Part shown: positions 8,757 to 37,635 of the stretch, one piece after another
Layout: the number at the start of each line of letters is the position of its first letter
How positions within the stretch are numbered: the stretch's first letter is position 1
Assembly: GCF_024494645.1 (NCBI RefSeq)
Contig: NZ_JANHDJ010000013.1
Span: forward strand, 1-37,883
Source of the DNA: Halohasta litorea
GTDB taxonomy: Archaea; Halobacteriota; Halobacteria; Halobacteriales; Haloferacaceae
Reading direction: 5' to 3'
Length of the DNA: 37,883 bases
The notes under the pieces: model-generated
What the model saw: only the letters and a program-made list of their open reading frames with translations
What the model was told of the DNA's origin: nothing
Database searches by the model: none
Translations under genes and position numbers: made by a program

Positions 8757-9146
8757 ATGAAGACCACACGGCACGCAACGTACAACCTCAACTACCACAT
8801 AGTGTGGATACTGAAGTACCGTCAATCGGTACTCGTCGGTGACGTTGCAACCCGTGTACGAGACATCCTCCACGAAATAGCCGACGAGAAAGGGTTGGAG
8901 ATTATTGACCTCACCGTCCAACCCGACCACATCCACCTGTTCGTAAGTAGTCCGCCGAAACACGCCCCCTCGCTTCTCGCCAACTGGTTCAAAGGCATCT
9001 GTTCGCGGAAATATAACCACCGCTACGCCGACCACGACGGCGAGAAAATCAAGTGGGCACGCGGCTACTACGCAGGAACAGCGGGACACGTTTCGAGCGA
9101 GACTGTCGAGAAATACATCCAGCGCCACGAGGAGGACGAACAGTGA
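8757..9146 (+). CDS. tnpA: IS200/IS605 transposase TnpA (Y1 HUH)
   Basis: This 129-residue Y1 transposase cuts and rejoins single-stranded ends of the element during replication. The HUH motif is visible as PDHIHLF (His58, His60). The catalytic tyrosine is Tyr120 in VEKYIQRH. The length is normal for the family. The ORF ends in TGA overlapping the GTG of tnpB (9143-9146), so the two are translationally coupled. Confidence 0.93.
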   Translation: MKTTRHATYNLNYHIVWILKYRQSVLVGDVATRVRDILHEIADEKGLEIIDLTVQPDHIHLFVSSPPKHAPSLLANWFKGICSRKYNHRYADHDGEKIKWARGYYAGTAGHVSSETVEKYIQRHEEDEQ

Positions 9147-19538: not shown

Positions 19539-19832
19539 TGGTCGATAGTTAAAGTAGGTTCCGAATCTACGTACTCAATAGGAGACACTGTTGGACTGTT
19601 AGAATCACTTCGGGGAGAACGCCTAAATGAGCTACTCAGTAACATCCTCGCCCGCTGGGTTCACGTCGTTCTGCACCGTCTTCGGCTCGAAGAGGACCAT
19701 AGCGACCGTGAAACACCGAACCGACTGAAGTATATAGCTGAGATTCGCGATGTGCGCGCCCTATATCAAGACGATCTCCCGGACAATAACATCAGTATCA
19801 CTAGCCGGGTTAGCAGTCTAACGCCGTACTGA
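19539..19832 (+). pseudogene. Start-less open frame, possible gene remnant
   Basis: A frame is open for 97 codons and ends at TGA 19830-19832. It reads like protein, with alternating Leu and charged residues (GLLESLRGERLNELL and YIAEIRDVRALYQDDLPD), but it has no ATG or GTG start in a sensible place. It may be the 3' part of a lost gene. The family is unknown. The stop overlaps the first base pairs of the palindrome copy at 19830. Confidence 0.3.
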
Positions 19833-19852
19833 CAACCACTGAGTGATTGTTT
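19830..19852. repeat. 23-bp palindrome, copy 1
   Basis: An imperfect palindrome with arms TGACAACCACT and AGTGATTGTTT around one central base. It matches three other copies in the window (consensus arms TAACAAYCACT and AGTGRTTGTTA). It lies 27 bp from the stop of the secY relic, as copy 2 does from the stop of the intact secY. Confidence 0.75.
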
Positions 19853-19879
19853 TGAGTTATACTGTCTGTGTGACTCGTA

Positions 19880-19930
19880 TCAGTTGAACAGTTGGCGCAT
19901 CATCGGATCCATCTCGATCAGTTGATCGTT
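19880..19930 (-). pseudogene. secY 3'-end relic
   Basis: Read on the minus strand, the last 16 codons plus stop give NDQLIEMDPMMRQLFN. This nearly repeats the end of the intact SecY at 25187, EEQLMEMHPMMRQLFN. No SecY sequence is recognisable upstream, where the frame continues for about 40 codons without similarity. The DNA match extends over about 40 bp, and a palindrome copy follows at the same place relative to the stop. It looks like the tail of a second secY gene that was lost. Confidence 0.7.
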
Positions 19931-20544
19931 CGAGTACCCTAACCCGAACGCTTCTGCTAGTTCCAGATTCTGTGGGAGTGTCAATAGCGTTGGCCTGTAA
20001 TTTCTCGGTAGAGTAACAAACAGAGTACCCCACAAAATGAATATAGAGCGGGATACCAATCGGGATACCTATCTTCCAGCGTATCAAACAGGGCTTCTAA
20101 CATTATACGCATCGGTGTCGACTGATCTTGATCCGTTCGACCCAGATGGGCTGGCTCCTCCCCGGTGTCCAACTGGCGGTACTCTAGGTGGCTGGCCTCG
20201 CCGGGCTCGGCCTGCTGTGGCGGTATCGATTTACCGGAAGCGACCTCAAGGACTGGCCGCCGAGGTTAGCTGTCGGTCGGTTCATAGCTCTCGGAAGGCT
20301 CGGTCGACACCGCATCGTGGACTGTGTCGCTGGGCGGGCTGAGGGGGAGTGATTAGAGTCGGGCGCTGATGGCGACGTCGGTGTCACCACCTGTTGTTAT
20401 CGTGTATCACGCCAACATGGACAGCAGTGAGACCATCCGTACCGAGCAGGTCACGAGTACGGACGATTTCCGCCTCGGAACCGATGGGTCGGCCATATGG
20501 CTACTTGGGTGAGAACGCTGAAATCCGAGATTGTGGCCGAGTAA
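19931..20544. other. Decayed intergenic stretch between secY relic and Rieske gene
   Basis: About 600 bases without a convincing intact gene. A minus-strand frame at 19981-20172 (63 residues, ending CLLLYREITGQRY) has one hydrophobic helix and might be real, but it has no support. A plus-strand pair of short frames follows: one broken by a stop (20146-20352, listed separately) and a 47-residue one at 20369-20512 containing TSTDDFRLGTDGSAIW. The composition is coding-like in places, so I read it as gene debris. Confidence 0.4.
20146..20352 (+). pseudogene. Small membrane protein gene with in-frame TAG
   Basis: From the ATG at 20146, the frame reads MGWLLPGVQLAVL, then TAG (20185-20187). It then continues as VAGLAGLGLLWRYRFTGSDL and a basic, Arg-rich end, up to TGA at 20350-20352. 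Without the stop it would be a 68-residue single-span membrane protein whose hydrophobic helix crosses the stop. No family is recognised. A nonsense mutation is the simplest explanation. Confidence 0.4.
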
Positions 20545-21387
20545 TTACTCCGGCCGTGGTCGGGAGACATACAGCGCAGTGGTGATCGAGAACGGATCAT
20601 ACACCGACTGATGACACTGACAGTACACCTTGTCGGCGGCGTTGTATTTGGGTGCATCGTTGGAGGATTTATACGTCGGCACACAACAGAAGTGGGTACA
20701 TTTGTTGAGCCACGCCATCACACCCCGATCGGTGCTCGCACTGAGCCATTCGTTATCCTGTGCAGCCTCTTCGATAATTTCTGATCGAATGATCTTCACG
20801 GGGAGAGGGTTTTTCGAGTCTTCGGAGCGCCAGACTGCCGCCGCTGGCTTCCCGATGCCGGGGGTCCCGATGCCGACTTCCGACTCCCATTCCTTGTAGT
20901 CAGAGAACTCCGAGATGTTGAACCGGTCGCCCTTTGATTTGTCGGACTGCCACTCGTAGCGGGTCCCAGGATCGCTTTTGAAGTAGTTATCGGATTCGTA
21001 GGTTGGGACGAGTGCGTTGTTCGATTCCAATCCACAGTACTGAAACCACTCCTGGGAATAGGTGACGCCGCCGAGCTCCTCACGGGCGACCTCAACTTCG
21101 ACACCTTCGACCGTTTCGGTATCGATCTCGGGCCAGACGCCTTTGATATACCCTTCGTCGTCGATCTCGATCGGGATCTGCGGCATCCCGCGCGGTGCAG
21201 GACCAGCAGTGTTTTCGATCACCTTTGCTTCGACCGGGCCACCACCGGCACCGGAGGTGGTCGTCAGCGTGTTCATCGCGACGGCTCCGGTGGCTCCAAC
21301 ACCGGCGAGGGCCGACCCGCCGACGACACCTTTGATGAACCGTCGACGACCAGATTCTGTCGGATATTTTTCGTCGTTGCGACTCAT
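20545..21387 (-). CDS. Rieske iron-sulfur protein
   Basis: This 280-residue electron-transfer subunit of a cytochrome bc-type complex begins with a Tat-like leader (SGRRRFIKGVVGGSALAG). That segment also serves as a membrane anchor in this family. The [2Fe-2S] domain shows CTHFCC (ligands Cys230 and His232) and CQCHQS (ligands Cys256 and His259). Cys235 and Cys258 are placed to form the usual disulfide. The partner cytochrome b gene, which normally follows in haloarchaea, is absent here. The gene is therefore an orphan copy whose complex must be encoded elsewhere. Confidence 0.92.
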   Translation of the reverse strand: MSRNDEKYPTESGRRRFIKGVVGGSALAGVGATGAVAMNTLTTTSGAGGGPVEAKVIENTAGPAPRGMPQIPIEIDDEGYIKGVWPEIDTETVEGVEVEVAREELGGVTYSQEWFQYCGLESNNALVPTYESDNYFKSDPGTRYEWQSDKSKGDRFNISEFSDYKEWESEVGIGTPGIGKPAAAVWRSEDSKNPLPVKIIRSEIIEEAAQDNEWLSASTDRGVMAWLNKCTHFCCVPTYKSSNDAPKYNAADKVYCQCHQSVYDPFSITTALYVSRPRPE

Positions 21388-21709
21388 GGTCGAAAATAGA
21401 AAGGGACCATTGAAAAGAATGTCGAAGTAGACGGTTTGACCGGGTAGATATTCCTCTGAAAATCCAGTACCAGCAAATCACGTTTCTCAGGTCATAACGC
21501 GGCAAGATCGAGGTCATGGGGTCATCTGGTGTCTCCTACATAGGTGTTGTATTACTTATACAGAATGTAGGCGTCACACAAGCTAATACGCCTGATTTCG
21601 ATGAATTCATCTGTCTCATACTGTGGTTGGCATATGATGAAGAAACAGAAATGCGGTCGACTAGGTTTCAATCTGTTAAAATCAGAGACAGTATAGGAGG
21701 GATGTACAT
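21388..21709. other. Divergent intergenic region, Rieske / phosphate permease
   Basis: A 322-bp AT-rich gap. A possible TATA element for the rightward gene is TTATAC near 21557, but it is far from the start. Closer to the start is a Shine-Dalgarno sequence, GGAGG (21696-21700), nine bases before the ATG at 21710. A 65-codon frame at 21516-21713 has no family and poor codon pattern, and is not called. Nothing else is visible. Confidence 0.4.
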
Positions 21710-22927
21710 ATGACATCTGTTACTTTCGTTCTCGTAATCGCACTGGTGGCAGCCCTGTTCATGTCGTTTACTGTTGGCGCAAACAGTAACTCAGCACCCG
21801 TGGCACCTGCAGTCGGTGCAGGCGCGCTTTCCGTGCTGAAAGCGGCTCTGTTAGTTGGCGTCGTGGCTGGACTGGGAGCGATTCTTCAGGGTGGCAGTAT
21901 TTCTGAGACGATCGGGAAGGACCTCGTCACCGGCGTAACGATCACGCCGCTCGCAGCGGCAGCGGCCCTGTTGACCGCGGCGACACTCATCACCATCGGG
22001 AACACATATGGATATCCGATACCCTCGGCGTTTACTGTTACCGGGGCGATGATCGGTGCCGGAATGGCCCTCGGCGGGGGGTTCGCCGTCGACGAGTACA
22101 TCGTTATCCTCGGGTTCTGGTTCGCGATCCCGATTGTGGAGGCCTGTATGGCATACGGACTGGCACGGGGGTTGCGGAGTGATGCCATTCCCAAACTCGT
22201 TGGTGTTCCGATTCTCGGAGGGGCAGTCGGGTATGCACTTGCCAATATCCAGCTGACGATCATCCCCACTGCCAGCGGCGCTCAGGGCTCGATCGCTCGG
22301 TATATTGCCACGACGTACCAGCTGCTCCCGACAGTTATCAGCGGCTCTTACACGGGAGGGATGGTTATAGTGAGCGTGATCTGTGGCCTCGCCGCACTGG
22401 TCGGAACTCGTCTGTTACTTCAGCGAGATAAAACCGTGGGAATCAACCAGTTCCTCATCATTCTGGGACTGATCGTCGTATTCACGAGCGGTGGCACCCA
22501 GGTCGGGCTCGCAACCGGGCCGCTTGAATCGATCTTCGAGTCTAATCTCGAACTGTCGTCGTTGTATTTACTGGCACTCGGCGGCGGCGGCATTCTCCTT
22601 GGTGCATGGATACGGGGCCCACGGCTCGTGCAGGCTGTCTCGAACGAGTATGCTTCACTCGGGCCGCGGCGGTCGATTGCGGCCCTTATTCCCGCATTTT
22701 TGATCGCACAGCTCGCCATCGTACTCGGGATTCCAATCTCGTTCAACAAGGTGATGATCGCAAGTATCGTCGGGAGTGGTCTCGCTGCCAGTCCCGGGAG
22801 CGGCAGCGGTGTCTCACCACGGAAAGTCGGTATCACGATCGGGTCGTGGGTTGGCTCGATGGTCGGGGCAGGTGTCATCAGCTACGGGCTCTACCAGCTG
22901 TTGAATGTCGTTCCCGGCATTGGATAG
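21710..22927 (+). CDS. pit: PiT-family inorganic phosphate transporter
   Basis: This 405-residue permease takes up phosphate with a cation. The first PiT signature is seen near the N-terminus as SFTVGANSNSAPVAPAVGAG, with a second related repeat in the C-terminal half (GIPISFNKVMIASIVGSG, then VSPRKVGITIGSW). About ten to eleven membrane segments fill the sequence, and the length is normal for archaeal PiT proteins. A strong Shine-Dalgarno site precedes the ATG. In haloarchaea such permeases often sit beside TrkA-type or UspA genes, and here a TrkA-type gene lies downstream on the other strand. Confidence 0.93.
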   Translation: MTSVTFVLVIALVAALFMSFTVGANSNSAPVAPAVGAGALSVLKAALLVGVVAGLGAILQGGSISETIGKDLVTGVTITPLAAAAALLTAATLITIGNTYGYPIPSAFTVTGAMIGAGMALGGGFAVDEYIVILGFWFAIPIVEACMAYGLARGLRSDAIPKLVGVPILGGAVGYALANIQLTIIPTASGAQGSIARYIATTYQLLPTVISGSYTGGMVIVSVICGLAALVGTRLLLQRDKTVGINQFLIILGLIVVFTSGGTQVGLATGPLESIFESNLELSSLYLLALGGGGILLGAWIRGPRLVQAVSNEYASLGPRRSIAALIPAFLIAQLAIVLGIPISFNKVMIASIVGSGLAASPGSGSGVSPRKVGITIGSWVGSMVGAGVISYGLYQLLNVVPGIG

Positions 22928-22937
22928 TCATACGGTT

Positions 22938-23003
22938 TACTGTAGACGGTTACCGCTCGATCGCCGCCCTGTCAGGCGATCGAGACGGCAACTTCCTACA
23001 GTA
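22938..23003. terminator. Nested hairpin between convergent genes
   Basis: The inner stem is CTCGATCGCC (22956-22965) with GGCGATCGAG (22975-22984), 10 perfect pairs and a 9-base loop. The outer stem is TACTGTAG (22938-22945) with CTACAGTA (22996-23003). It lies between the pit stop (22927) and the stop of the leftward gene (23011), the place for a bidirectional terminator or RNA-stabilising structure. There is no U-tract, so termination is not proven. Confidence 0.55.
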
Positions 23004-23010
23004 GACTGTA

Positions 23011-23436
23011 TCAGGAGATGATCTGGTCGATGATTTCTTCTTCGGCTGCCTGCGTTTTCATTGTTTCCCACGTCTCGAACTCAGTCGTGGTAGCGATGTA
23101 GTCGTTGAGTGGGTCGCGAGAGATGGCCTGTAGGTCGCCGATATCATCAACTGGCCATGGACTCTCCGTACAGAATGCGGAAAACGAGTCGAACTCGGTG
23201 TGGTCGCGCATGAACGGTTGTGAGAAGAACGTGTCCGATGTGACTCGGGTCCCCGCTTGCAGTTCATCGATTCGAGTGAGCGCAGTCTCAACCTTCTCTT
23301 CAAGATCCTCCAGCCCGGCAACCTGAAGATCCATACTACCAATGACGTCTGGAAGGCAGAAAAGGCTACGACCACTGAGTGTAGAGTTCCCGTCGTGCGA
23401 TTGGTGATCGCCAGCCCACAGGGCAACGTCGGTCGC
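23011..23436 (-). pseudogene. Hypothetical protein, probably broken at its 5' end
   Basis: An ATG at 23334 gives a 107-residue acidic, helical protein with no recognised family. The same frame, however, stays open and protein-like back to 23436, before that ATG (DVALWAGDHQSHDGN and LFCLPDVIGSM). Just beyond, another frame (23437-23489) also reads like protein (SGFIEVPVPALE). This suggests an older, longer gene with a frameshift and a lost start. It lies between pit and the TrkA-type gene and might have been transcribed with the latter. Confidence 0.5.
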
Positions 23437-23584
23437 TCAAGGGCAGGTACTGGCACCTCGATGAACCCGCTTGCCGAGGGAATGTCGTCCTAAATATATG
23501 GTCGGTCGACTGGAGATCACTCCGGTTGGTCTTTTTCCCCTCCCTCATCTACGAACTGACTCCTGAGAGCGGTCATCGCTCCGG

Positions 23585-24921
23585 TCAGATTTTCTTTGCG
23601 ACCTCGTCGACGACGTCGGTATCGACAAACGCGATCACCCGGTCACCGGTCTGGATAATCGTGCCGCCACGAGGTGTTCGAAGCGTACCACCCCGACTAT
23701 CGCGCCAATGACGAACTCGGATGGGAGATGGCGAGCCACGTCCATGAGTGAATCACCCGCAAGGATACTGTCACGGTCGACGACGATTTCGAGGACTTCT
23801 GCGGCATCGTGTTCGATGACAGAGACACTCTCGGCCCGTTGATGGTACACCTGTTGGAGGATCTCTCCTGTGATGATGTCCTGTGGATGGAATATCAGAT
23901 CCAGTTCACTTTCCTCGAAGATGTCGATGACTTCCGGCTGGTCCACGACAGCGGCAGTTTGCGCGCTCCCAAACTCACCGGCAAACTGGCCAATCAGATA
24001 GTTCGTGTCGTCGCTTTCCATCGCACCGATGACGAAATCGGCCGTCGAGAGATTGTCGAGGCCGAATGTCTCGATATCGCTTGGATCAGCTTCGATAACG
24101 GTCGTCGACTCCAGGTGATCCCGAAGCCACGCTGCGCGCTCGGAGTCCGACTCGACGATCCGCGTCGACAGCTCACGGTCCTCTATAAGTCGGGCTATCT
24201 GGTAGCCGACGGCAGTGCCACCGATAATGAGGAGTTCGTCATCCGGTGTCGGGGCTGGACGGTCCGAGACCTCGGCTGCAAACCGTGAAATACCGCTGTG
24301 ACTCCCGATCACGATGACCGAGTCACCTGCCCGAAAAACTGTCTCCCCCTTCGGGATGAGAACGTCTCCATCGCGGACGATTCCCGCAAACGTCAGCGAG
24401 GGGTGTTGGTCTGCCTCGGCAACCGTCCGGTTCGTGATCGGTGTCGACTCGTCAATGGGGAACTCTGCGACCTCGGCGATACCCTCGCCAAACGTATCGA
24501 AAGCTTTGGCTCCCGGCAGTGCAACCGTCCGGACAAGGATCTGGGCAGCCAACAGATCGACACAGAGCATCGTGTCGACGCCAAATTGCTTTTCGGACTG
24601 TTCCCAGACACGGAACAGCCCGACGTCTTTGACACGGGCAATCGTGTGGGTTTCTTGAGAGTTTTTGACAGCAGTACAGACCATCAGATTGGTCGCATCG
24701 TCGTCGGTCGTTGCAATAACGAGTGCTGCGGTTTCGAGTCCGGAGTCTCGAAGCACAGGCAGTGATCGACCGTCACCGACGACCCCAGTCACATCAACCT
24801 CTGTGGTGAGGGTATCGATCCGGTCTGCATCACGGTCAATGACCGTGAGGTTGTGAGAGTCCGACAGGTTTCGAGCGATGTTTGAGCCGACATCTCCGGC
24901 TCCGATAATGAGAGTCTCCAT
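23585..24921 (-). pseudogene. trkA: TrkA-type K+ uptake regulatory protein, frameshifted near the C-terminus
   Basis: TrkA-type proteins have two RCK units that bind NAD(H) and gate a K+ channel such as TrkH. The first nucleotide fold begins METLIIGAGDVGSNIARNL and the second DDELLIIGGTAVGYQIA; each is followed by a TrkA-C domain. The intact frame reaches FVIGAIVG and then runs into an unrelated tail, ending at 23635. In the next frame the family ending is plainly there (GGTLRTPRGGTIIQTGDRV, then DEVAKKI), with a stop at 23585. A one-base deletion at about 23694 (CCCCGAC where CCCCGGAC is expected) explains this. The repaired length is 445 residues, normal for the family. Only the last beta strands of the second TrkA-C domain are lost, so some function may remain. 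A sequencing error is also possible. Confidence 0.85.
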
Positions 24922-24967
24922 AGCCTATAATAGAATGCAAATTAGTATTATATTTCTTTTGCTCCCT

Positions 24968-24997
24968 TTGACCTCCTCCCACCCCTTCAGGGGTGGG
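24968..24997 (-). mobile_element. Solitary IS200/605 right-end-like sequence
   Basis: On the minus strand this reads CCCACCCC-TGAA-GGGGTGGG (a perfect 8-bp stem) followed by AGGAGGTCAA. The last 13 bases, GGGAGGAGGTCAA, equal the right end of the complete element (10438-10450). No tnpA or tnpB is nearby, so it is either a remnant or a small non-autonomous derivative. It lies about 50 bp upstream of the TrkA-type start (24921). The left limit of such an element could not be found. Confidence 0.6.
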
Positions 24998-25137
24998 CTT
25001 TCGCCTCGCTACCGCTGTAATCGCCACAGGGATGACGTACAAGTGCTTTGTGTATCCCGAATTCCCGGTTAGCTCTCCCCCGATTCAGGAGTATCCTGTT
25101 CGGTCGGAGCTTTGTGGTGCTGGGATACTGAGAGAAA

Positions 25138-25160
25138 TAACAACCACTAAGCTATTGTTA
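25138..25160. repeat. 23-bp palindrome, copy 2
   Basis: Arms TAACAACCACT and GCTATTGTTA around the centre; the right arm is the least perfect of the four copies. It lies 26 bp beyond the secY stop codon and upstream of the TrkA-type gene. Confidence 0.65.
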
Positions 25161-25186
25161 CAGCGCGCTGTGACAGCTGCTCCACG

Positions 25187-26656
25187 TTAGTTGAATAGTT
25201 GGCGCATCATCGGATGCATTTCCATCAGTTGTTCTTCAGCTATTTCTTCGTACAGTTTGTACGTGATACTCACCGTGAGCAGTAATGAGGTGCCGGAGAC
25301 ACCGCCGATAGTTCCGAGCATATTAGCGAGCACCGCGAGCAGTCCGACGAGGGCTCCGCCAAGTACTGCGACTTGTGGAATGTATCGTTCAAGAACCTTC
25401 TCGACTACTTGTGGGTTCTGACGGAAGCCAGGAATCTGCATGCCGGAACCAAGTATCTGGTTCGCAGTCGCCTCCGGACCCATATCGGCGGTCTCGACCC
25501 AGAAGATCGAGAATATCGCCCCGCCGATAAGCATAATTGCCAGATCTATCGAAACGCGAAGCATGATCTGCCACGGTTCGTGACCACCAACACCACCGGC
25601 CCACCACATCCACTGACTCGGGGTTTGGATCGGATTAACGTAGTAGAACAGCCCGTCGATGACCTGTCCATTCGAGTTGTACTCTCCAAGCCACATCGGC
25701 ATCGTCTCGCCCAGTTGGCTCGACAGAATGCGTCCAATAAACTGGATATTTGACTGAATCGCTCGGACAAAGATCATCGGCATCACGCTTGCGTAGATGA
25801 GTTTCACCGGGAACCGCCCGCGGCCACCCTTCACCCGACTGTGTGAAAGCGGGATCTCGACCCGGACGCTCTCCGCATAGACGACGATAGCGAAGATGAG
25901 TAGTGTCGTGAACAACGGAAGCAAGCTTCCGCCACCGAACAGCAGTGATTGGATCCACGTCATTGATAACGGAGCCCCAAGCGGAATATCTCCGAGAATG
26001 ATCTTAACCCAGAAAGTGAGAATGCCGTTTTGTTGGCCCGCCAGGCCCGGCACCGCGACGAGGCCACCGACGAGTTTCTGACTGACACCGGCGACGATGA
26101 ACAGGCCGACGCCGCTGCCGACACCCCATTTGCTGATTATCTCGTCCATGAAGAGGATCAGCACCCCGCCGACGGCGATCTGTGCGAAGATGAGCCACTT
26201 AACTGCCACGAGGGGAACGCCAAGTGCCTGTGCGACCTGCGGATTCGCTGGGAGGAACCCACCGGCAAACACCATCGGAAGACCGGTGAGGAAGATCATC
26301 AGCACAACCAAGAGCTTCTGGAGTCCCTGATAGAGGATTTGGTCACGTGGGTCCGAGGTGTCGAGTCCCAAGAGGTTCGCCCCGCTGAGCAGTTGGAGGA
26401 CGATGCTCGCGGTCACGATGGGACCGATCCCGAGATGCAACAGGGTGCCCTGACCGCCCGCGAGGATCGACCGGAACTGACCGAAAACGTCACTCCCCTG
26501 GTTCGCGCCGAAAAGGTAGACGTTCGAAAGGAAGAAATACAGCAGCAAGGTTCCGGCGGTCCATGCGAGTTTACGCCGGAACGACACGTGCTTGTCAGGG
26601 CGCGCGACGACCGGCATCCGTGTGAGGATCGGCTCGGCAGCCGTCTTCCAGCTCAC
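25187..26656 (-). CDS. secY: Preprotein translocase subunit SecY
   Basis: This 489-residue central channel of the Sec translocon has ten membrane segments. Recognisable parts are the N-terminal SWKTAAEPILTRMPVVARP, the plug region after TM1, RVEIPLSHSRVKGGRGRFPV in the large cytosolic loop between TM6 and TM7, and the C-terminal EEQLMEMHPMMRQLFN. The GTG at 26656 is chosen as start: GGAGGTG (plus strand 26661-26667) is a strong Shine-Dalgarno site, and the family start WKxAAEPxLTRMP follows at once. The usual neighbours (ribosomal protein genes before, adk after) are missing, so this is probably an additional copy. A frameshifted membrane protein gene lies just upstream, and a palindrome copy follows its stop. 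Confidence 0.95.
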   Translation of the reverse strand: MSWKTAAEPILTRMPVVARPDKHVSFRRKLAWTAGTLLLYFFLSNVYLFGANQGSDVFGQFRSILAGGQGTLLHLGIGPIVTASIVLQLLSGANLLGLDTSDPRDQILYQGLQKLLVVLMIFLTGLPMVFAGGFLPANPQVAQALGVPLVAVKWLIFAQIAVGGVLILFMDEIISKWGVGSGVGLFIVAGVSQKLVGGLVAVPGLAGQQNGILTFWVKIILGDIPLGAPLSMTWIQSLLFGGGSLLPLFTTLLIFAIVVYAESVRVEIPLSHSRVKGGRGRFPVKLIYASVMPMIFVRAIQSNIQFIGRILSSQLGETMPMWLGEYNSNGQVIDGLFYYVNPIQTPSQWMWWAGGVGGHEPWQIMLRVSIDLAIMLIGGAIFSIFWVETADMGPEATANQILGSGMQIPGFRQNPQVVEKVLERYIPQVAVLGGALVGLLAVLANMLGTIGGVSGTSLLLTVSITYKLYEEIAEEQLMEMHPMMRQLFN

Positions 26657-26741
26657 GGACCCACCTCCAAGGAGCGCGCTGGTCGGCAACAGTGCAGGTC
26701 GACGAACCGGCTGACTGCGACAGTAGTGTACATGCTTTGGG

Positions 26742-27589
26742 TCAGAGCCACTGCTCAGGCTGCGTCGCTGCGGTCGACACGAAGCGGCCGCTATCGACCC
26801 GGTAAGACGAGTCGTTCGGCTCCGTATCGCCGACCGTCGAGACAGCCGAGTAGGCTTCGCGTGAAAGTTCAGCACCGGGAGCAAAAAACACTACTGATTC
26901 GAATACTGGAGCATCTCCTCGGGCGGCACTGCATCGACGACTCGAAGCGGGTGGCGGCGGCCTGCCCGGTCGAACACCGACACGGAGTCCGTCTCCCACG
27001 GCGGCACCGCCACAAACACGACTTCACTCAGGTCATCACGTTTGGTGAGCTGCGGCCCGGACTGCGGATGGGTCAAGAACCGCCCATGGGTACGCCCGGC
27101 GGGGACGTGGAGGTCGACGCCGAAGACGCTGCCGACGGCGTTCGGCTCACGCGGGAGATACAGATGGGTAAACACCGGCATCGAACTGGCAGCATCCACC
27201 GGGGCGTTGAGTCGGTCTGCGGGGGTGGTCGCCAGTCGCATCGAGAGTGTCTCGGGCTCGGCCTCCGCAGCGTACTCGAGCAGCGCATCTAAAAGCGGCC
27301 GCGTGACGAACACTGGCCACCGCGTGTCGGTTCCGACCGGTGTGTGGTCTATCGCCTCGGTCGCCGACGACGAGCCGGGAGCGATGCGGTCGCCGAGGAC
27401 GGCCCCGGCGACCGCACCCATGCCGAGGAGTTCGAGATCCAGATCGATCCCCACACCCAGCCCCGACAGCGGTATCTCCGGGAGCAGATCCAAGACGATT
27501 CCCACTGTGCCGAACCCAACGATGAGCACTCCGAGAACGAAGACGGCAGCCCATCGAGTCGACTCGAACCGGTTGCTGACAGCGTACAT
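26742..27589 (-). pseudogene. Membrane protein of unknown function, frameshifted
   Basis: The first 232 codons (27589-26891) give two membrane segments (about 13-35 and 52-66) and a soluble domain containing PVFVTRPLLDALLEYAAEAE and a repeated acidic pattern. The frame stops after EEMLQYSNQ. The next frame continues at that point as FESVVFFAPGAELSREAYS and runs another 50 codons to TGA at 26742-26744. That tail has the strong GC3 pattern of a real coding sequence. A single-base change near 26905 would join them into a protein of about 281 residues ending 85 bp before the secY start. No family is recognised. A sequencing error is possible. Confidence 0.65.
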
Positions 27590-27766
27590 ACTGCCGCCTT
27601 CACCGCGAGGGTGTTATGTGTTCCTTTTCGAACTGACTTCCGCGGAACGAGCCGTCGACACTCCCGTGAAAGGAGCCGCTGTCGACGATGCACCCAAGCC
27701 CGCGATGGGACACCCAAGTCGGCGCGGGGGCATCGTAGTCGACTGGGTGGGGGAGAAACGAAAATC

Positions 27767-27789
27767 TAACAATCACTTAGTGGTTGTTA
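27767..27789. repeat. 23-bp palindrome, copy 3
   Basis: Arms TAACAATCACT and AGTGGTTGTTA around a central T. It lies in the divergent gap between the frameshifted membrane protein gene (start 27589) and rdfA (start 27873), about 85 bp before the rdfA ATG. Confidence 0.8.
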
Positions 27790-27872
27790 CAAAGAGGATC
27801 GGGGGGACGATATCGGCGGTCACGGCACCGTGAACCACCGGATCAGAGGATACCCTTAAGAGCCCGTGACTC

Positions 27873-28637
27873 ATGAATATGGCAAGAACAATGGGTTGCA
27901 AAGTCGACCGTCTCACGGACCGCTACGAACTCACCCCGCCTCGCTCCGAGGACGACTCTATCCACGCGTATCTGCAACGACGCTGGACGGGGGTCGACGG
28001 ACGGGAGCCGGAGGGATACAAATCGCTCACCCAGTGGTTCAACAAGCGACTGCTCGCCCGGATCTACGAGACCCACGGCCGCGATACGGTGGCGGCCCAT
28101 CTCGACACCGAGTACGAACTCATCACGGGCGACGACACAGTCGACCGCGACGAGCTCGCAGCAGATCTCACGACCGACGGGTTGGAGATCGATGAGCTCG
28201 CTGGCGAACTCATCTCGTGGAGTACGATGCGACACCACCTCAAGGGGTGTCTCGACGCCGAAAAGGAGGTCCCATCGGCTTCGACAGACTGGGAGCAGAA
28301 CACCGTATCGAGGGCGAAACAGCAGACCGCAGCGAAGGCCCAGTCGGTGCTTTCGTCGCTCACCTCGAAGGATCGACTCCCGGATGCCGACCGAGCCGAG
28401 GTCGACGTGCAGGTCAAACTGGGCTGTCCGGACTGCTCGGTCCGCGTCCCCTTCGAGGACGCGGTCGAACGGGGCTACGTCTGCGAAACTCACTTCGAGG
28501 AACGCACCGAGTCCGTCACCGACCGGCTCCGGACGAAGCTGTCGGCGCTCACCGTCCCCGTTCCGGTCGTCGAAGCAGCCCAAACGCTCTTGCTCGAAGA
28601 TCCGTATCTCTTCGAGGCAGCACTGGCAGGTGTCTAG
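27873..28637 (+). CDS. rdfA: Rod-determining factor RdfA
   Basis: This 254-residue protein belongs to the haloarchaeal family linked to the rod cell shape. The family opening MGCKVDRL is found at residue 7, so the ATG at 27891 is an alternative start. A helical N-terminal domain is followed by a zinc-finger-like part, CPDCSVRVPFEDAVERGYVC (about 184-203), with CETH as the last ligand. The C-terminus is helical. The SMC-related gene starts two bases after its stop, and the two genes form a pair in many haloarchaea. The gene is downstream of palindrome copy 3. Confidence 0.85.
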   Translation: MNMARTMGCKVDRLTDRYELTPPRSEDDSIHAYLQRRWTGVDGREPEGYKSLTQWFNKRLLARIYETHGRDTVAAHLDTEYELITGDDTVDRDELAADLTTDGLEIDELAGELISWSTMRHHLKGCLDAEKEVPSASTDWEQNTVSRAKQQTAAKAQSVLSSLTSKDRLPDADRAEVDVQVKLGCPDCSVRVPFEDAVERGYVCETHFEERTESVTDRLRTKLSALTVPVPVVEAAQTLLLEDPYLFEAALAGV

Positions 28638-28639
28638 TC

Positions 28640-30427
28640 GTGAGCTGGCATCTAAGCTTAGAGAACATCGCCGGGATACAGTCGGCTGCGGCCACCCTCG
28701 AACCGGGTGTCAACGCGGTTCGGGCGAGCAACTGGCAGGGCAAATCGAGTTTTCTCGCGGGGATCGAAACCGTCTTCGGAACGGCAACGCCGCTCACCGA
28801 GGGCCGTGAGACGGGACGAGCAACCATCGAGACCGACGACCGAGCGGTGGCCGTCGAACTCGACCGAACCGACGGTGTCGTGCGGTCGACGGGCGAGCCC
28901 CTTCTCGCCGACGAGTACGACCGCGTGTGTGCAGCCCTCTTTGCGTTTCTCGGCGAGGACAACGAAATCCGGCAGGCGGTTCAGCAGGGTGAGGACCTCG
29001 AAGCACTGCTGACCCGCCCGCTCGACTTCGAGGATATCGAATCTCGGATCGCGTCCCTCCGTCGGGAACGCGACCGGATCGAACGGGAACTCGAAGCGGC
29101 GACCACAGCAGCCGACCGCCTCCCACAGCGGCAGGAACGGGTTACCAGCCTCGAATCCGAGCTCGACGAGTTGCGGGCCGAACGGTCGACGCTCGATACC
29201 GACGAGACGGCCGCCGAAGAGACGCAGCGAGAGGCGTTGAGCGACCTTCAGGCCGAACGGGACCGGGTGACGACGCGCATCGAGCGGCTGGAATCGACGG
29301 TCGACCGGGTCCAAAACCGGCTTACGGACCGGCGGCACGACCTCGAAGAACTCACCGTTCCGGATCACGACGATGTCACAGCTGAACTGGAATCGCTCCG
29401 CGATGATCTCCGAGAGATCGAACGCGACAGGGAACTCTTACAGTCGGTGTTTGAGGCGAACAGACGTATCGTCGACGAGGAACGGACGGAGCTCCTGACG
29501 GAGGTCTCCCACGACATGCTGTCGGACACGTTGGCATGTTGGGTCTGTGGCCAAGAGGCGACACGGGATACTATCGAGGTGCAACTCGACGCCCTCGATA
29601 GCCGGATCTCGGAACTGGGTGCCACTGCCAGAGCCCAACGTGAGCGCGTCGACACACTCGAAGCCAAACGTGACGAGGCTACCCAAGCCGAACGTCGAAC
29701 GGCCGATCTCGAAAGCGAGATTGCCGACCTCGAAGCCAAACTCGCCGAAACCGAACAGTCGCTGGCCGAATCGAGGGAGAAACGCGAGGATTTGACCGCC
29801 CGGATCGACGACCTCGACGAGGACGTCGCCGCCACCAAGGACCGGCTCACCGAACTCGAAAGTGAGATCAAGTACACCGAAGCCGAGTTGGCCGACGCCC
29901 GCGAGGAACTCACGAAGGCCGAACAGCAGGCCGACAGGCGGGAGCCGCTTCGGGAGGACTACGAGTCGCTGTCGGCGGAGATCACCGAGCTTCGAGACCG
30001 GAAAGAGACTGTCAAACGCCGGACGCGGGAGGCGTTTTCGGCGGCGATGGACGACCTGCTCGAACGCTTCGAGACCGGCTTCGAGACGGCCAGACTCACC
30101 CCTACCTTCGAACTCGTCGTTGCCCGCGAGGGCCGCCAAGCGCCTCTCGATGCGTTGAGTGAGGGCGAGCGTGAGCTACTCGGATTCGTCGCCGCACTCG
30201 CTGGCCACGAGGCCTTTGACGTCGGCGAACGTGTCCCCGTCATGCTCCTGGATGAACTCGGCGGGCTCGCCAGCGACAACCTCGAAGTACTGGTCGCGTA
30301 TCTCGCCGACCGGACGCCGTACCTCGTTTTGACGGCCTACCCCGAACACGCTGACTTCGACGCCAACGAGCTTTCGCCGACCGACTGGCAGGTCATCTCT
30401 CGTGACGCGGACCTCCGGGCGTCATAG
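28640..30427 (+). CDS. Archaea-specific SMC-related / Rad50-like protein
   Basis: This 595-residue ABC-type ATPase has the layout of Rad50 and SMC proteins. The N-terminal Walker A is ASNWQGKSS (Lys35). Two long coiled coils (about 140-290 and 310-490) flank a zinc-hook motif, CWVC (300-303). The C-terminal half has the signature LSEGERELLGFVAAL and Walker B VPVMLLDE. Start: the GTG at 28640, two bases after the rdfA stop, opens with SWHLSLENIAGI as in the family. The upstream part of the frame lies inside rdfA. It probably dimerises through the hook and acts on DNA together with RdfA. That partnership is inferred from gene pairing. Confidence 0.9.
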   Translation: MSWHLSLENIAGIQSAAATLEPGVNAVRASNWQGKSSFLAGIETVFGTATPLTEGRETGRATIETDDRAVAVELDRTDGVVRSTGEPLLADEYDRVCAALFAFLGEDNEIRQAVQQGEDLEALLTRPLDFEDIESRIASLRRERDRIERELEAATTAADRLPQRQERVTSLESELDELRAERSTLDTDETAAEETQREALSDLQAERDRVTTRIERLESTVDRVQNRLTDRRHDLEELTVPDHDDVTAELESLRDDLREIERDRELLQSVFEANRRIVDEERTELLTEVSHDMLSDTLACWVCGQEATRDTIEVQLDALDSRISELGATARAQRERVDTLEAKRDEATQAERRTADLESEIADLEAKLAETEQSLAESREKREDLTARIDDLDEDVAATKDRLTELESEIKYTEAELADAREELTKAEQQADRREPLREDYESLSAEITELRDRKETVKRRTREAFSAAMDDLLERFETGFETARLTPTFELVVAREGRQAPLDALSEGERELLGFVAALAGHEAFDVGERVPVMLLDELGGLASDNLEVLVAYLADRTPYLVLTAYPEHADFDANELSPTDWQVISRDADLRAS

Positions 30428-30497
30428 CCAGTCGACAGGCCAGACAGCTATCAGTTTCCCGATACAGTTTTGTGTTCTGAAAGGTAACCCTGAGATA

Positions 30498-30716
30498 ATG
30501 AGCCACTTTACCGACCAGCATCGCAAAGGTGTCGCTGCGTTTACCAAAAGCCTCGAACACAAACGGGTGAGCTGTACTAACTGTGGGTTCGAAGCCCGCG
30601 TCCTCCACGACGACTGGAAGACGCACGTCGAAACCGACCCGAAGACGGGACACATCCTCTACAGGCTCACCTGTCCGGACTGTCGGTCGGAGCGCGTAGT
30701 CGACATCGACATCTGA
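30498..30716 (+). CDS. Small zinc-finger protein (HVO_0649-like)
   Basis: This 72-residue protein has two CxxC pairs (CTNCGFEARV and CPDCRSERV) that would bind one zinc ion. Between them lies a stretch rich in His, Asp and Lys. The ATG at 30498 (MSHFTDQHRKG) is chosen; the longer frame from 30402 overlaps the end of the SMC-related gene and has no family sequence. Small proteins of this type are common in haloarchaea and often regulatory. The specific role is unknown. Confidence 0.8.
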   Translation: MSHFTDQHRKGVAAFTKSLEHKRVSCTNCGFEARVLHDDWKTHVETDPKTGHILYRLTCPDCRSERVVDIDI

Positions 30717-30780
30717 TCGGGACGGGTCGTGTGAGTGAGCCAGCACGTTTCCGCGGTCGCCCAGCTGCTGCACTGTTCGC

Positions 30781-31530
30781 CTACGCCTCGGTCTGCGGGA
30801 CGGCGAGCCCCCCGACGACGAACAGGAGGCCCGCAAGGGCGGCGAGCACGAGCAGCTCCCTCGTGGCAGGGGCCCGGAGGTACGTCACAGCCCGGACCCC
30901 CCGAGCGAAGTAGGTCAGCGGTGACAGCGCGACGAGCGGTCGGAACCACGCCGGGAGCAGCTCCGGTGCGACGAACGTCTCCGAGAGGAACACCATCGGG
31001 AGCGCGACGGCGTTGCTCGCGGCGACGACCCCGTCTTGGGAGTCGGCGACCCGCCCGAGAACGGCCCCGAGGCCACAGAAGACAACGACCGCGAGAACGA
31101 CGAACGGTACCACCAGCGGGACGAAGACGGTCGTGGCGTCGGTTAGTACCGACAGGGCCGCGAGGACCACCACGCTCGCCGCGAGGATGATACCGGCGTT
31201 GACGACGATGTGCGCCGCGAGCCACTCGAAGCGGTTCAGCGGTGTCGTGGCCAGTTTCTCGAACCGTCGACCGTCGCGGTGGCGGGCGATACTGCTGCCG
31301 ACCCGTGTCAGCGGCGTAAACAGGACGATCACCGACAGGTAGCCGGGGACGTAGTAGCCCGTCGGGTGGCCGAACAGCCCGCTCCCGGTCGGATCCGCCC
31401 CCACGACCGCCCCGAAAATGCCGACCAGGATCAGCGGAAAGCCGAAGGTGAAAAACACCGCCGTCCGGCGGCGGAGGAACGACCGCGAGGCCGCACGGGC
31501 CTCGGCACCGATGCGGGCGATGGTGGTCAT
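30781..31530 (-). CDS. ABC-2 type transporter permease
   Basis: This 249-residue permease has six membrane segments, the usual form of the ABC-2 family. The ABC-2 core is visible in GRRFEKLATTPLNRFEWLAA, followed by three hydrophobic helices and a loop with LPAWFRPLVALSPLTYFARG. The start overlaps the ATPase gene by four bases (ATGA, 31527-31530), so the two are one unit. Substrate unknown; drug or lipid export is typical of the family. Because the partner ATPase is damaged, the pair is probably inactive unless another ATPase serves it. Confidence 0.88.
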   Translation of the reverse strand: MTTIARIGAEARAASRSFLRRRTAVFFTFGFPLILVGIFGAVVGADPTGSGLFGHPTGYYVPGYLSVIVLFTPLTRVGSSIARHRDGRRFEKLATTPLNRFEWLAAHIVVNAGIILAASVVVLAALSVLTDATTVFVPLVVPFVVLAVVVFCGLGAVLGRVADSQDGVVAASNAVALPMVFLSETFVAPELLPAWFRPLVALSPLTYFARGVRAVTYLRAPATRELLVLAALAGLLFVVGGLAVPQTEA

Positions 31531-32417
31531 CGACTAGCCTCCGAGCCCGGGACCGAGTTACCGGCGGTCGCCCGTGGTCCCGGCCGTGCCTTCGAGCCGG
31601 TCTCGGCGTCGGTCAGGGAGAGATACACGTCTTCGAGGGTGGGTTCGGTCCACGACAGCGCGTCGTATTCGATGCCACAGTCCGAAAGCGCCCCGAGTAC
31701 CGATCCGATCTCGGTCGGGTCGACGTCGTGGACGACTACCCCCGTCTCGGTCGCGGCCGCAGCGACCGGCAGCGCCTCGGGATCGGTCGGGGGCTGACCC
31801 GCCGTTTCGATCTGGAGTCGGGTCCCACCGCCGTAGTCGTCGACGAGGTCGGTCGGCGTGCCGGTCGTGACGAGCCGCCCGTCGGCGAGCAGGCCGACGC
31901 GGTCGACGAGGGTTTCGGCCTCCGCCATGTAGTGGGTAGTCAGGAACACCGTCGTCCCGCTGGCGTCGAGGAAGAGTAGATCTGGATCATTCACGAGCGT
32001 GATGCCGACGCAGGCCCGCCGCTGTTGGACGCCCGAGAGGTTCGCATACCGGGTGTCGGCCGCCTCAACGAGCCCGACCTCGCCGAGGATCTCGTCGACG
32101 GGACGGGCGTCCTCGTAGAGCCCGGCGTAGTAGTCGAGGAGTTCCCGCGCCGACTGCCGCTTGGGTGGGGTAAATGACTGGGGGAGGAGGCCGATCTGTT
32201 CGTCGTCGACGTCGGGTGGCGTCGTCCCGAAGACGCTCACCGAGCCAGTATCCGGCTCGGTCGTCCCCGTCACCGCCCGGACCAGCGTGGTCTTCCCTGC
32301 ACCGTTGGGGCCGACGAGTCCGAACACGGTCCCCTCGGTGATCGACAACGAGACTTCATCGAGGGCGACGGTGTCTTCGTACTGTTTCGATATACCTTCG
32401 GCTGTGACAGCGGCCAT
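31527..32417 (-). pseudogene. ABC transporter ATPase with internal deletion of the catalytic region
   Basis: 296 residues. Walker A is GPNGAGKTT (36-44), and a Q-loop-like LLPQSF and a C-loop LSGVQQRR follow. Walker B LLFLD ends at Asp151 and continues directly as ASGTTVFLTTHYM. In working members the catalytic Glu, the EPT motif, the D-loop and about 20-30 residues of helix stand between LLFLD and the His-loop. They are absent here, so an in-frame deletion at about 31965 has removed the ATP-hydrolysis residues. The C-loop also has Val where the family has Gly (LSGGQ). The rest of the frame is normal. The protein may bind ATP but should not hydrolyse it. Confidence 0.85.
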
Positions 32418-32526
32418 CAGCTTCGAGTTACGGAGCGTGTGAAGTAAGCGGTTCGATTCTGCACTGTCACGAGACGAGCGGCGTCACGTCCGTGCTGTCG
32501 GCGAGCGCGTTGCATCGCCCGAACAG

Positions 32527-32549
32527 TGACAATCACTTAGTGGTTGTTA
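32527..32549. repeat. 23-bp palindrome, copy 4
   Basis: Arms TGACAATCACT and AGTGGTTGTTA around a central T. It lies in the divergent gap between the ABC ATPase (start 32417) and the DUF106 gene (start 32674), about 110-125 bp from each. Confidence 0.8.
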
Positions 32550-32673
32550 ACATCGCTCGGTAGCCACTGGCCGACCGATTGGTGGTGTCCAGAGCCTGAC
32601 GTCTCGGGACGGTCGTCGAACACGCGCGAACGGAAGCGTTGATAACTAACTAGCCGCTAGCTCCCGTCACGGA

Positions 32674-33588
32674 ATGACAGCCGACCAGCTAGAGGCACTT
32701 GTCGACAACCCAGCCACGCGGGAGGCACTCAGGGTCGTCATCGAGCGCACCGACGGTGGGAGCGAGGAAATCCAGTGGGACGACGTAAGCGACGTCCTCT
32801 CGAGCGGCCAGTGGGGCCAGTTGATCAGCCAGGAGGTCCTCGTGGGCACGAGCAGTGGATTCGCCCTGGCGAACCCCGACCGTGTCGGCGACATGCTCGC
32901 CGACGGGCCCGACGAGACCGATGCCAGCCACGCCAACGACGCCGATGAGGTTCATCCCGATACCATCGAGTCCGAATCGTGGACCCGCTACGACAAGCTG
33001 GCCGGTGTCATGTCGCTCGTCTTCATGGCAGGCTACTGGAACCCACAGGTCAGGAACGTCGTTGCATCGATCGACGACGTGTTGCTCGGGCCAGTGACCG
33101 ACGTCCTGCCGTTCTATGCCGTCATTCTGGGACTGGCGGTGCTCACCGGACTGTACTCCACGGTTCTCCAGGACCGACTGATGGACCACGAGGCCATGGC
33201 GGCCTACCGCGAGCGGATGGAGGAACTGAAACAGCGGCGCGAGGCGGCCAAAGAGCGAGGTGACGACGAGGCACTCGAAGCGATTCAGGAAGAACAGATG
33301 GAGGCCGCCGGGGACCAGTTGGGGATGTTCAAGCTTCAGTTCCGACCGATGGTCTGGATCATGCTCCTGACGATACCGGTCTTCCTGTGGCTCCGTTGGA
33401 AGGTCAGCGGCGGTCACCTCGGCAACACGGCCGGGATGGTCCTCCCGCTGGTGGGATCGGTCGGCTGGCAGGGCACTGTCGGCCCGATGCCGACCTGGAT
33501 CGTCTGGTACTTCCTCTGTTCGCTGGCGTCCCGACAGATCATCCAGAAGATGTTTGGTATCCAAACCTCCCCGTCTTCAGAGGGGTGA
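32674..33588 (+). CDS. DUF106 / YidC-Oxa1-superfamily membrane protein
   Basis: This 304-residue protein of the archaeal DUF106 family is related to YidC, Oxa1 and EMC3 membrane insertases. The N-terminal 100 residues are cytosolic and contain SSGQWGQLI and an acidic linker. Membrane segments lie at about 112-128, 145-163, 225-243 and 265-285. The cytosolic coiled coil between the second and third (YRERMEELKQRREAAKERGD) is the hallmark of the superfamily. On haloarchaeal chromosomes the gene usually sits next to secY and adk. Here it is alone but in the same window as an orphan secY. A palindrome copy lies upstream. Confidence 0.9.
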   Translation: MTADQLEALVDNPATREALRVVIERTDGGSEEIQWDDVSDVLSSGQWGQLISQEVLVGTSSGFALANPDRVGDMLADGPDETDASHANDADEVHPDTIESESWTRYDKLAGVMSLVFMAGYWNPQVRNVVASIDDVLLGPVTDVLPFYAVILGLAVLTGLYSTVLQDRLMDHEAMAAYRERMEELKQRREAAKERGDDEALEAIQEEQMEAAGDQLGMFKLQFRPMVWIMLLTIPVFLWLRWKVSGGHLGNTAGMVLPLVGSVGWQGTVGPMPTWIVWYFLCSLASRQIIQKMFGIQTSPSSEG

Positions 33589-35226: not shown

Positions 35227-37635
35227 TCAGGTCCGCTGGTTTCGGAACCAGCGGGTGAGCCGGGAAGTGATACCCACGTACCGTTTGGCCATGATCACCG
35301 TTCCGTCGACCTGTGTGCCGATGGCTTCCGGGACTGAGCCGAAGACGAGTTGCTGCAAGAGTCCCTCGCGGGACGAGCCGACGACCGTCACATCGTGGGC
35401 GGCGGCCCGCTCGACGATGGCGTCGACCACCGACTCGGCTTCGATGGTCTGGGTCGTAACTGGAACGTCGTCAAGCACAGCTCCCGTCCGGTCGAGGATG
35501 CGTTCGGCAACCGCTGGTTCGGCTTCGCCCGGTGCAGTGACGTAGATCACCTCGACGCTCGCGCCGGTCGACCGCGCGATGGCGTGGGCGACTTCGGCAG
35601 CGAACTGGGCGTGTGGTCCGCCAGCCGTCGGTACGAGGATCGACTCGACGTCACCGACGGGGGCCATGCGCTCGACGAGGACATCACAGCGGGCCTCGGT
35701 GACGACACGGTCGACGTTGCTGCCGAGGACGTAGTCAGTCCGGCGACTGCGGCCACGCCAGCCCATCAACACGAGGTCAATGTCGTCCTGTGTAACCGTG
35801 TTCAGGATTGCGGTCGCCGGGTCGTTACCGATGCGGATTTTGCCACGGACGGGGATGTCATGGTCGCTCTCGTCAGCGAATGCCAGTGCTTGGTCGATGA
35901 CGTTCCGTTCGGTATCGACGAATTTTCTCCCTTCGGACAGCGGCGTCTGCCGTGGGACCGTAACCACACTCACAACCTCTATTTCGGCGTTCCGTTCGGC
36001 GGCAAGATCAAGGGCGGTCCGCATCAACTGCTCGACGCTCTCGGGGTCGGCAATAGGAACGAGTAGCCGCTGGTCGCGGCCCTCGCCCTCTGGCACGCGC
36101 TCGGTGGCCACCGTGGGTGTCTCAGCTTCGAGTTTTTCTTCTTCTTTCCGTTCGGAGTAGCCATAATAGACAGCGAGGCCGAGGCCCATCCAGATGATCG
36201 TCGTCAGGAGGGCGATAAAGCCGTGGGAGTCCGGCCCGAGGCCGATCTCCATGCCGAGTGCCGACAGCAAAAACGGCGTCAACAGGAACTGGAGGACGAT
36301 CCCGATCAGAGGCGGCCACGGCATGTAAGGGACCTCGAAGGTCCGGGGTAGGTCGCGATGGGTCTTCCGCATCTTGATGACCGTCCAGTTGACCTGCACG
36401 AACAGGAGTATGAACATGATGTCGGCCGAGGCGGCGACGGCTTCGATGGGGAGGACCACCGCCATCGCGGCTATGAGGATCGCCGAGAGGAAGATCGCCC
36501 AGTGAGGGGTCCGCTTGTCGGGGTGTATCTTCTCGAAGATCCCCGGCAGTGCCCGGTCCCGTCCCATCGCAAACGAGACCCGCGACGAGGAGTAGACGGT
36601 CGCGTTGAGCGCCGACATCGTGGCGGTCAGCCCGGCGATCAACAGCAGCGGTACTCCGTAGGGGACGAACTGACCGGCGGCTTCGATGATCCCCAGCTCA
36701 CCGAGGTTCCCGAGCAGTTGCCAAGTCGGCGCGTCGGGGGTGAGACCCGCACTCGCTGCGAGCTCCGGGACGACGCTGATCCCGCCGATGGCCGCAAACG
36801 AGACCAGGATGTAGATCGGGACGACGATGAGCAACGAGTAGAAGACGGCCTTGGGGATGTTTTCACCTGGATCGACGACCTCCTCACCCGACTGGACGAT
36901 GATCTCGTAGCCCTCGAAGGCGATGTAGGTAAAGCCCATCGCCCCGATGATCCCGATGGCACCGTTCGGTGCGAACCCCGGATTCGCAACGAATTTTGCT
37001 GGCCAGTCGGGCGTGTTGAACGTCGCCAGCAGCCCGAAGGCGACGAACACTCCGAGAATCACGACCTTGATCGCGGTCACGACAACGCCAGCTTTCCCGG
37101 TCTCCTCGGCCCCTCGGTAGTTGATGTAGGCGAACAGACTCACCATCAACACGGCGAGGAGCTTCTCGACGAGGAGCCGGTCGACGACCCCCAACAGGAG
37201 GAACTCTCGGGGGAGCAGCCCAGCGTACACGATGAATTCGGTCAGGAAAACCCCGAAGGTGACGGCGTACAGCGAACACGCGACCGCGTGGGCAAACCAG
37301 CTCATCCAGCCCGCATAAAAGCCGTTGGGGTCGACGAGCGCCTCTTTGACCCAGAGGTAGCCACCACCCGCCTCGGGGAAGGCCGCACCGAGTTCGGCAT
37401 ACGAGACGGCCGTAAACAGCGCCACGAACCCGTTCAGAAGGAACGCGACAGTCAGTGCGGGCCCAGCAAGCCCCGCCGCGAACCCCGTCAACGCAAATAC
37501 TCCGGCCCCGATCATCGCACCGACACCGATGAACGTGATGTCGAACAGGCTCATGTCCCGCGATAGTTCCGTCTCGACATGGTCATCGGCTACTGTAGAT
37601 TCTGAACTATTCGAATCTACATGGCTATCGCTCAT
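35227..37635 (-). CDS. APC-family permease fused to two UspA domains
   Basis: This 802-residue protein has, after a polar N-terminus of about 30 residues, an APC permease core with about twelve membrane segments and the TM1 motif GVGAMIGAGVFALTGFAAG (up to about 490). Two universal-stress-protein domains follow (about 520-660 and 665-790). Each starts with a LLVP or ILVP strand, and the first has the ATP-site-like GNDPATAIL, then GWRGRSRR. Such permease-Usp fusions are well known in haloarchaea, and the Usp part may sense nucleotides and gate transport. The gene is complete, and its start lies about 120 bp from the right-hand IS. Confidence 0.93.
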   Translation of the reverse strand: MSDSHVDSNSSESTVADDHVETELSRDMSLFDITFIGVGAMIGAGVFALTGFAAGLAGPALTVAFLLNGFVALFTAVSYAELGAAFPEAGGGYLWVKEALVDPNGFYAGWMSWFAHAVACSLYAVTFGVFLTEFIVYAGLLPREFLLLGVVDRLLVEKLLAVLMVSLFAYINYRGAEETGKAGVVVTAIKVVILGVFVAFGLLATFNTPDWPAKFVANPGFAPNGAIGIIGAMGFTYIAFEGYEIIVQSGEEVVDPGENIPKAVFYSLLIVVPIYILVSFAAIGGISVVPELAASAGLTPDAPTWQLLGNLGELGIIEAAGQFVPYGVPLLLIAGLTATMSALNATVYSSSRVSFAMGRDRALPGIFEKIHPDKRTPHWAIFLSAILIAAMAVVLPIEAVAASADIMFILLFVQVNWTVIKMRKTHRDLPRTFEVPYMPWPPLIGIVLQFLLTPFLLSALGMEIGLGPDSHGFIALLTTIIWMGLGLAVYYGYSERKEEEKLEAETPTVATERVPEGEGRDQRLLVPIADPESVEQLMRTALDLAAERNAEIEVVSVVTVPRQTPLSEGRKFVDTERNVIDQALAFADESDHDIPVRGKIRIGNDPATAILNTVTQDDIDLVLMGWRGRSRRTDYVLGSNVDRVVTEARCDVLVERMAPVGDVESILVPTAGGPHAQFAAEVAHAIARSTGASVEVIYVTAPGEAEPAVAERILDRTGAVLDDVPVTTQTIEAESVVDAIVERAAAHDVTVVGSSREGLLQQLVFGSVPEAIGTQVDGTVIMAKRYVGITSRLTRWFRNQRT

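Follow-up and report, generated by a model that had tools for sequence, protein, structure and literature searches.

A clade-specific palindromic site accompanying the RdfA and SMC-related gene pair of haloarchaeal plasmids

Introduction

The stretch of Halohasta litorea DNA analysed here (the window: 37,883 nucleotides, contig C4 in full) carries a 23-bp palindrome at four places amid genes for a second SecY, a second EMC3-like insertase, an ABC transporter, RdfA and an SMC-related protein. Which of these genes does the palindrome belong to, and which protein would recognise it? Haloferax volcanii depends on RdfA to form rods, yet no molecular activity is ascribed to the protein in the paper that named it; RdfA-family and SMC-like genes are mostly adjacent (PMC10869688). 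The full text of that paper contains neither 'DNA-binding' nor 'helix-turn-helix', and a DNA site was not found there either. The RdfA-Sph3 pair of H. volcanii (HVO_2174-HVO_2175) places the same two protein families side by side as in the window, HVO_2174 being taken to belong to the chromosomal RdfA branch. A semi-palindromic haloarchaeal operator, TATCA(N4)TGATA, has been described for CsmR, with rdfA and sph3 in the CsmR-associated regulon (PMC13286277); the window sites differ from it in sequence, length, centre and regulator. A matching motif, a description of the site or a DNA-binding activity of RdfA was not found in the literature searched, and the RdfA-linked palindrome seems to be undescribed so far.

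Four palindromic sites in the window

The sites and their weight matrix (PWM) scores are as follows.

Site 1: 19830..19852, strand (.), TGACAACCACTGAGTGATTGTTT; 3' of the secY2 relic; 31.5 bits
Site 2: 25138..25160, strand (.), TAACAACCACTAAGCTATTGTTA; 26 bp past the secY2 stop; 33.2 bits
Site 3: 27767..27789, strand (.), TAACAATCACTTAGTGGTTGTTA; 83 bp upstream of rdfA, in the divergent orf232/rdfA region; 37.5 bits
Site 4: 32527..32549, strand (.), TGACAATCACTTAGTGGTTGTTA; divergent ABC-ATPase/EMC3 (DUF106) region; 37.8 bits

An initial annotation had reported four copies, all between genes. Both points hold: each copy matches the consensus TAACAAYCACTNAGTGRTTGTTA with 0-2 mismatches, four of four are intergenic, and 100 shuffles of the window yielded no match to the palindrome (0 expected by chance). 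The suggestion that the site might be specific to this replicon is likewise borne out within the genome (34 contigs, 3.81 Mb), where a search at up to three mismatches returned nothing beyond the four copies on the window contig. The coordinated changes that had been read in the dyad, however, are not there: in all window copies, positions 7 and 17 read T/G or C/A and are never complementary. The arm of the window motif is TRACAA and its centre CTNAG.

The genes around the sites are the following.

19882..19987, minus strand: secY2 relic derived from the 3' end of the gene (a 46-nt match at 89%; about 35 codons), with a site still behind it
25187..26617, minus strand: secY2, second SecY
26891..27589, minus strand: orf232, conserved 232-aa partner gene upstream of secY2
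27873..28637, plus strand: rdfA (PF21811), proposed binder of the site, with HTH-like residues 106-126
28640..30427, plus strand: archaea-specific SMC-related protein (ASRP/Sph) with a CxxC hook (NF045487)
30781..31530, minus strand: ABC-2 transporter permease
31527..32417, minus strand: ABC transporter ATPase
32674..33588, plus strand: second EMC3/TMCO1-like (DUF106) membrane insertase

A single duplication may have given rise to sites 1 and 2, which follow the secY2 relic and secY2 respectively; the other SecY of the genome is a 500-aa open frame on contig C28. The RdfA protein is a member of its Pfam family (136.6 bits against PF21811, cut-off 27). Its SMC-like partner scores 469.6 bits against NF045487, passing the curated cut-off of 300, and has the CxxC zinc hook (CWVCGQ), which identifies it as an ASRP (PMC9389158). 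PADLOC matches of this protein concern coiled-coil ATPases in general, and no defence system was inferred from them. Together, the second SecY, the second EMC3/DUF106 protein and the 232-aa protein form a plasmid-borne cluster that recurs in several haloarchaeal families (window 25187-33588; L192-L202, L213, L215) and looks like an accessory translocon. Elsewhere the window encodes a small transposase-like protein followed by a TnpB-like protein with a Cas12f1-like TNB domain (8757-10378), an extra TFB (TFIIB) (13278-14240), and an amino-acid permease fused to universal stress protein domains (35227-37635), the last of which is found near most rdfA-ASRP loci of the window clade.

Conservation of the site across haloarchaea

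A weight matrix built solely from the four window sites detected 56 further sites. All 26 test loci (together 555 kb), rdfA-bearing neighbourhoods from about 12 haloarchaeal genera, contain at least one, although several of these loci are close relatives and the counts are therefore not independent events. In 1.45 Mb of control loci the same matrix found no site, and every one of the 56 outscores the control maximum. Nineteen of the test loci were fetched by the RdfA protein alone, the others via the motif (L041-L044 and L039), an earlier match (L324) or EMC3 (L320). Strong sites in RdfA-fetched loci, for which the motif was not used, come from Natrinema, Natrialba, Halobacterium, Halocatena, Haloarcula, Haloplanus and Haloferax. 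L190, L198, partial loci and the weak L216 fall outside the set; no site was seen in L190 and L198, which lie at contig ends. The annotated plasmid records of Natrinema caseinilyticum, Haloarcula pelagica, Haloferax lucentense and Haloferax alexandrinus agree on the sites, and in the complete plasmid records read the rdfA-ASRP loci are plasmid-borne.

When 18 named genomes carrying the cluster were scanned in full, the listed sites of 0-1 mismatches fell inside the cluster or next to it, with one exception. This is a lone site in Haloferax sulfurifontis, TGACACTAACTTAGGGATTGTCA (L321:9502-9524), far from rdfA on the same contig and kept in H. denitrificans; located upstream of a metallo-beta-lactamase-like gene, it is possibly a further target. 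A recent natural deletion is seen in genome G040, where twin sites are kept (L040:8867-8945), rdfA is gone and ASRP is reduced to a 107-residue fragment.

The site follows rdfA-ASRP

A second-type EMC3 is encoded in eight other genomes of the 170 in the family (58-68% identity). All eight, together with the window genome, are among the 24 genomes with a relaxed motif match (hypergeometric p ~5e-9), and in seven of the eight the sites share the cluster with the second EMC3. A tie of the motif to EMC3 or SecY2 was nevertheless rejected. The eighth genome (G039) carries the second EMC3 on contig C8 with no site within 20 kb, and rdfA-ASRP on contig C2 with twin sites. No site was found on a Haladaptatus plasmid with a related EMC3 and no rdfA in the region read, nor at the housekeeping secY/EMC3 loci (L318, L046). 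Conversely, pNATPE02, G063 and G067 have rdfA with sites and no EMC3/SecY in the stretches read, the pNATPE02 site lying 13.7 kb from rdfA. Because EMC3 genes away from rdfA are siteless (L093, L319) and rdfA-ASRP without EMC3 or SecY has sites, the site follows rdfA-ASRP and not the translocon genes. The only genes common to all sampled loci of the two RdfA clades compared below are those of RdfA and ASRP; what else matched was either a reading frame overlapping these two genes or, in a single locus, a generic ABC ATPase.

A sister RdfA clade has its own version of the site

On megaplasmids of Haladaptatus, Haloterrigena, Natrinema halophilum and Natronococcus, rdfA is preceded by other 23-bp dyads, for example ATTAACAGACTAAGTCTGTTAAC and ATTCACACCCTAAGGGTGTAAAT. 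They share the CTNAG centre of the window motif but differ in their arms (TTAACA or TTCACA), and belong to a sister clade that was never searched with the window motif. All 16 possible self-complementary centres were compared over the 300 bp that precede each of 109 different rdfA genes: at a strict cut-off CT.AG gave 23 upstream matches in 21 of the 109 loci, whereas the next-best centre gave 2. In the 78 chromosomal paralog loci the same centre gave one match. At a looser cut-off, 24 of the 34 loci of clade 12 have CT.AG dyads, as twins 53-70 bp apart in seven of them, and the half-site TAACA is two bases closer to the centre than in the window clade.

The matrices for the window type (A-type) and the sister type (B-type) give negative scores on each other's sites. 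In a maximum-likelihood tree of the 109 RdfA proteins, all 25 loci assigned by an A-type matrix made from window sites only fall in one clade of 31 (support 99/92); 32 of 35 B-type loci, assigned by a matrix trained on the clade that it marks, fall in another clade of 34 (support 95/98). Four Haloarcula genomes (G208, G387, G409 and G326) combine a locus of one clade with a locus of the other, and either locus carries the site type of its clade; the type of site therefore follows the gene and not the host. The CTNAG-centred dyad thus exists in two or more clade-specific versions, the window palindrome being one of them. This palindrome is a genuine DNA site of the RdfA-ASRP gene pair, conserved and specific to its clade.

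Such palindromes are not universal at RdfA loci. The dyad is missing in most loci of RdfA clades 13-16 and, apart from the single match mentioned above, at the 78 chromosomal loci, whose RdfA proteins are 25-36% identical to that of the window. On plasmid pCBA1229 of Halorubrum sp. CBA1229, two identical dyads, TGAAACGCCCTTAGGGTGTTTCA, are located behind the ASRP gene (L227:10515 and 10717), beside another repeated palindrome, GCGTCCGTGACAAGGACGC.

RdfA as the candidate binder

The initial annotation had proposed a dimeric regulator joining the translocon, rdfA/SMC and transporter genes. This is well supported: the sites are not random, hardly any falls inside a gene, and they are retained at the orthologous genes of several families; no regulator had been named. 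RdfA is probably a DNA-binding regulator and the palindrome its landing site. A structure model of RdfA, computed from 99 sequences, is confident for residues 9-130, with helices 106-112 and 116-126 at high confidence. These helices bear a conserved SW[SG]TMRxHL segment that, in the model, reads like a helix-turn-helix. In structural comparisons, chains of bacterial sigma domain 4 recur over the 106-126 part, at Z values of 2.1-3.3 that are below any firm threshold. A library scan with RdfA gave no match except Pfam RdfA, and a fold search no firm DNA-binding match.

As expected for the operator of a self-encoded dimeric regulator, a palindromic CT.AG site is located upstream of the putative regulator's own gene in the 21 of 109 loci (strict cut-off) and 24 of 34 clade-12 loci (looser cut-off) counted above. 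From these observations we infer RdfA to be the binder, to act as a dimer and to exert its effect on transcription. The N-terminal helical domain of RdfA, with its HTH-like residues, would bind the 23-bp dyad as a dimer; the centre would be common to the group and the arms (TRACAA versus TTAACA/TTCACA) would set clade specificity. Bound upstream of promoters, RdfA would control the plasmid cluster, that is rdfA-ASRP, the second EMC3, orf232-secY2 and the ABC transporter. In the sister clade it may act mainly on rdfA-ASRP itself via the twin sites.

Discussion

We consider it reasonably likely that the palindrome is the cognate site, or operator, of the adjacent RdfA, a predicted helix-turn-helix dimer that would control transcription of the cluster. 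The placement of the sites bears on this reading in both directions. Most occupy spacers between divergent or tandem genes, with 41 to ~230 bp separating them from the start codon that follows; these distances are approximate, since gene starts outside annotated records come from a simple gene caller. Because most sites lie upstream of the expected TATA position, activation fits better than repression. In several genera the stop codon of emc3 (TAA or TGA) is itself the start of the site behind it (L192:6040, L193:14240, L196:15521, L197:14105, L042:8945, L041:9180). Three sites (G014, G072, pNATPE02) separate convergent genes, an unexpected position for an operator; a strong match is inside the ASRP gene of a Natrialba locus (L196); and the ABC-ATPase site of Haloferax is merely 21 bp from the ATPase start. 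The convergent, in-gene and 21-bp sites do not fit one simple operator position, and several A-type loci lack a site at the promoter of rdfA. The two sites kept in G040 beside a remnant of rdfA-ASRP likewise count against the operator reading, as do the RdfA clades and chromosomal loci that lack a CTNAG dyad.

The main rival to the operator reading holds that RdfA occupies the sites mainly so that ASRP is nucleated or loaded on the replicon, like ParB-parS for bacterial SMC, any effect on transcription being secondary. By this analogy RdfA, ASRP and the CTNAG dyad might form a three-part system, in which a sequence-specific protein would nucleate an archaeal SMC-related ATPase at a few megaplasmid sites, and clade-specific arms would keep paralogous systems apart as in the parallel partition systems of bacterial plasmids. 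In the ParB-parS and omega-parS systems of bacteria, a few palindromic sites are found near the gene of the binder, and promoter control and DNA organisation are possible together. Several features are consistent with loading: site, RdfA and ASRP are the sole triad common to both clades, replicons have few sites, within ~20 kb of rdfA, and the plasmid location of the loci, the convergent placements and the close spacing of the twins all point the same way. However, most sites occupy intergenic regions that hold promoters, including those of transporter and translocon genes. Moreover, the window RdfA matches only Pfam RdfA, unlike the bacterial binders, and no ParA product was found in the annotated plasmid regions read. 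We therefore regard ASRP loading as the chief function of the sites as rather unlikely, and the three-part system drawn from the analogy as equally tentative.

It is quite improbable that a different regulator, with its gene elsewhere in the genome, uses the sites as operators to control the accessory translocon cluster. Sites do flank EMC3 and SecY2, and further HTH genes are present near some loci, but the example considered, a TetR gene beside a MATE gene, was rejected, with no site near it in the loci read. Furthermore, the site type tracks the RdfA clade and not the host genome, clade-12 loci share only rdfA and ASRP with all clade-17 loci, and EMC3 without rdfA is siteless. That the dyad acts at the RNA level, as a hairpin, a terminator or a processing site, or is a functionless mobile repeat is very improbable: some copies are right behind secY2 or overlap the emc3 stop codon, but many are upstream of genes, positions 7/17 are often C-A, unpaired in RNA, and the copies recur at the same places across genera, in one neighbourhood per genome.

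The operator reading leads to a concrete prediction, namely that RdfA binds DNA and recognises CTNAG dyads. Text searches of the literature turned up neither a partner protein nor a cis site for ASRPs, and the dyads supply candidate cis sites for these archaea-specific SMC-related proteins. They are also a likely control element of the second Sec/EMC3 translocon on haloarchaeal megaplasmids.
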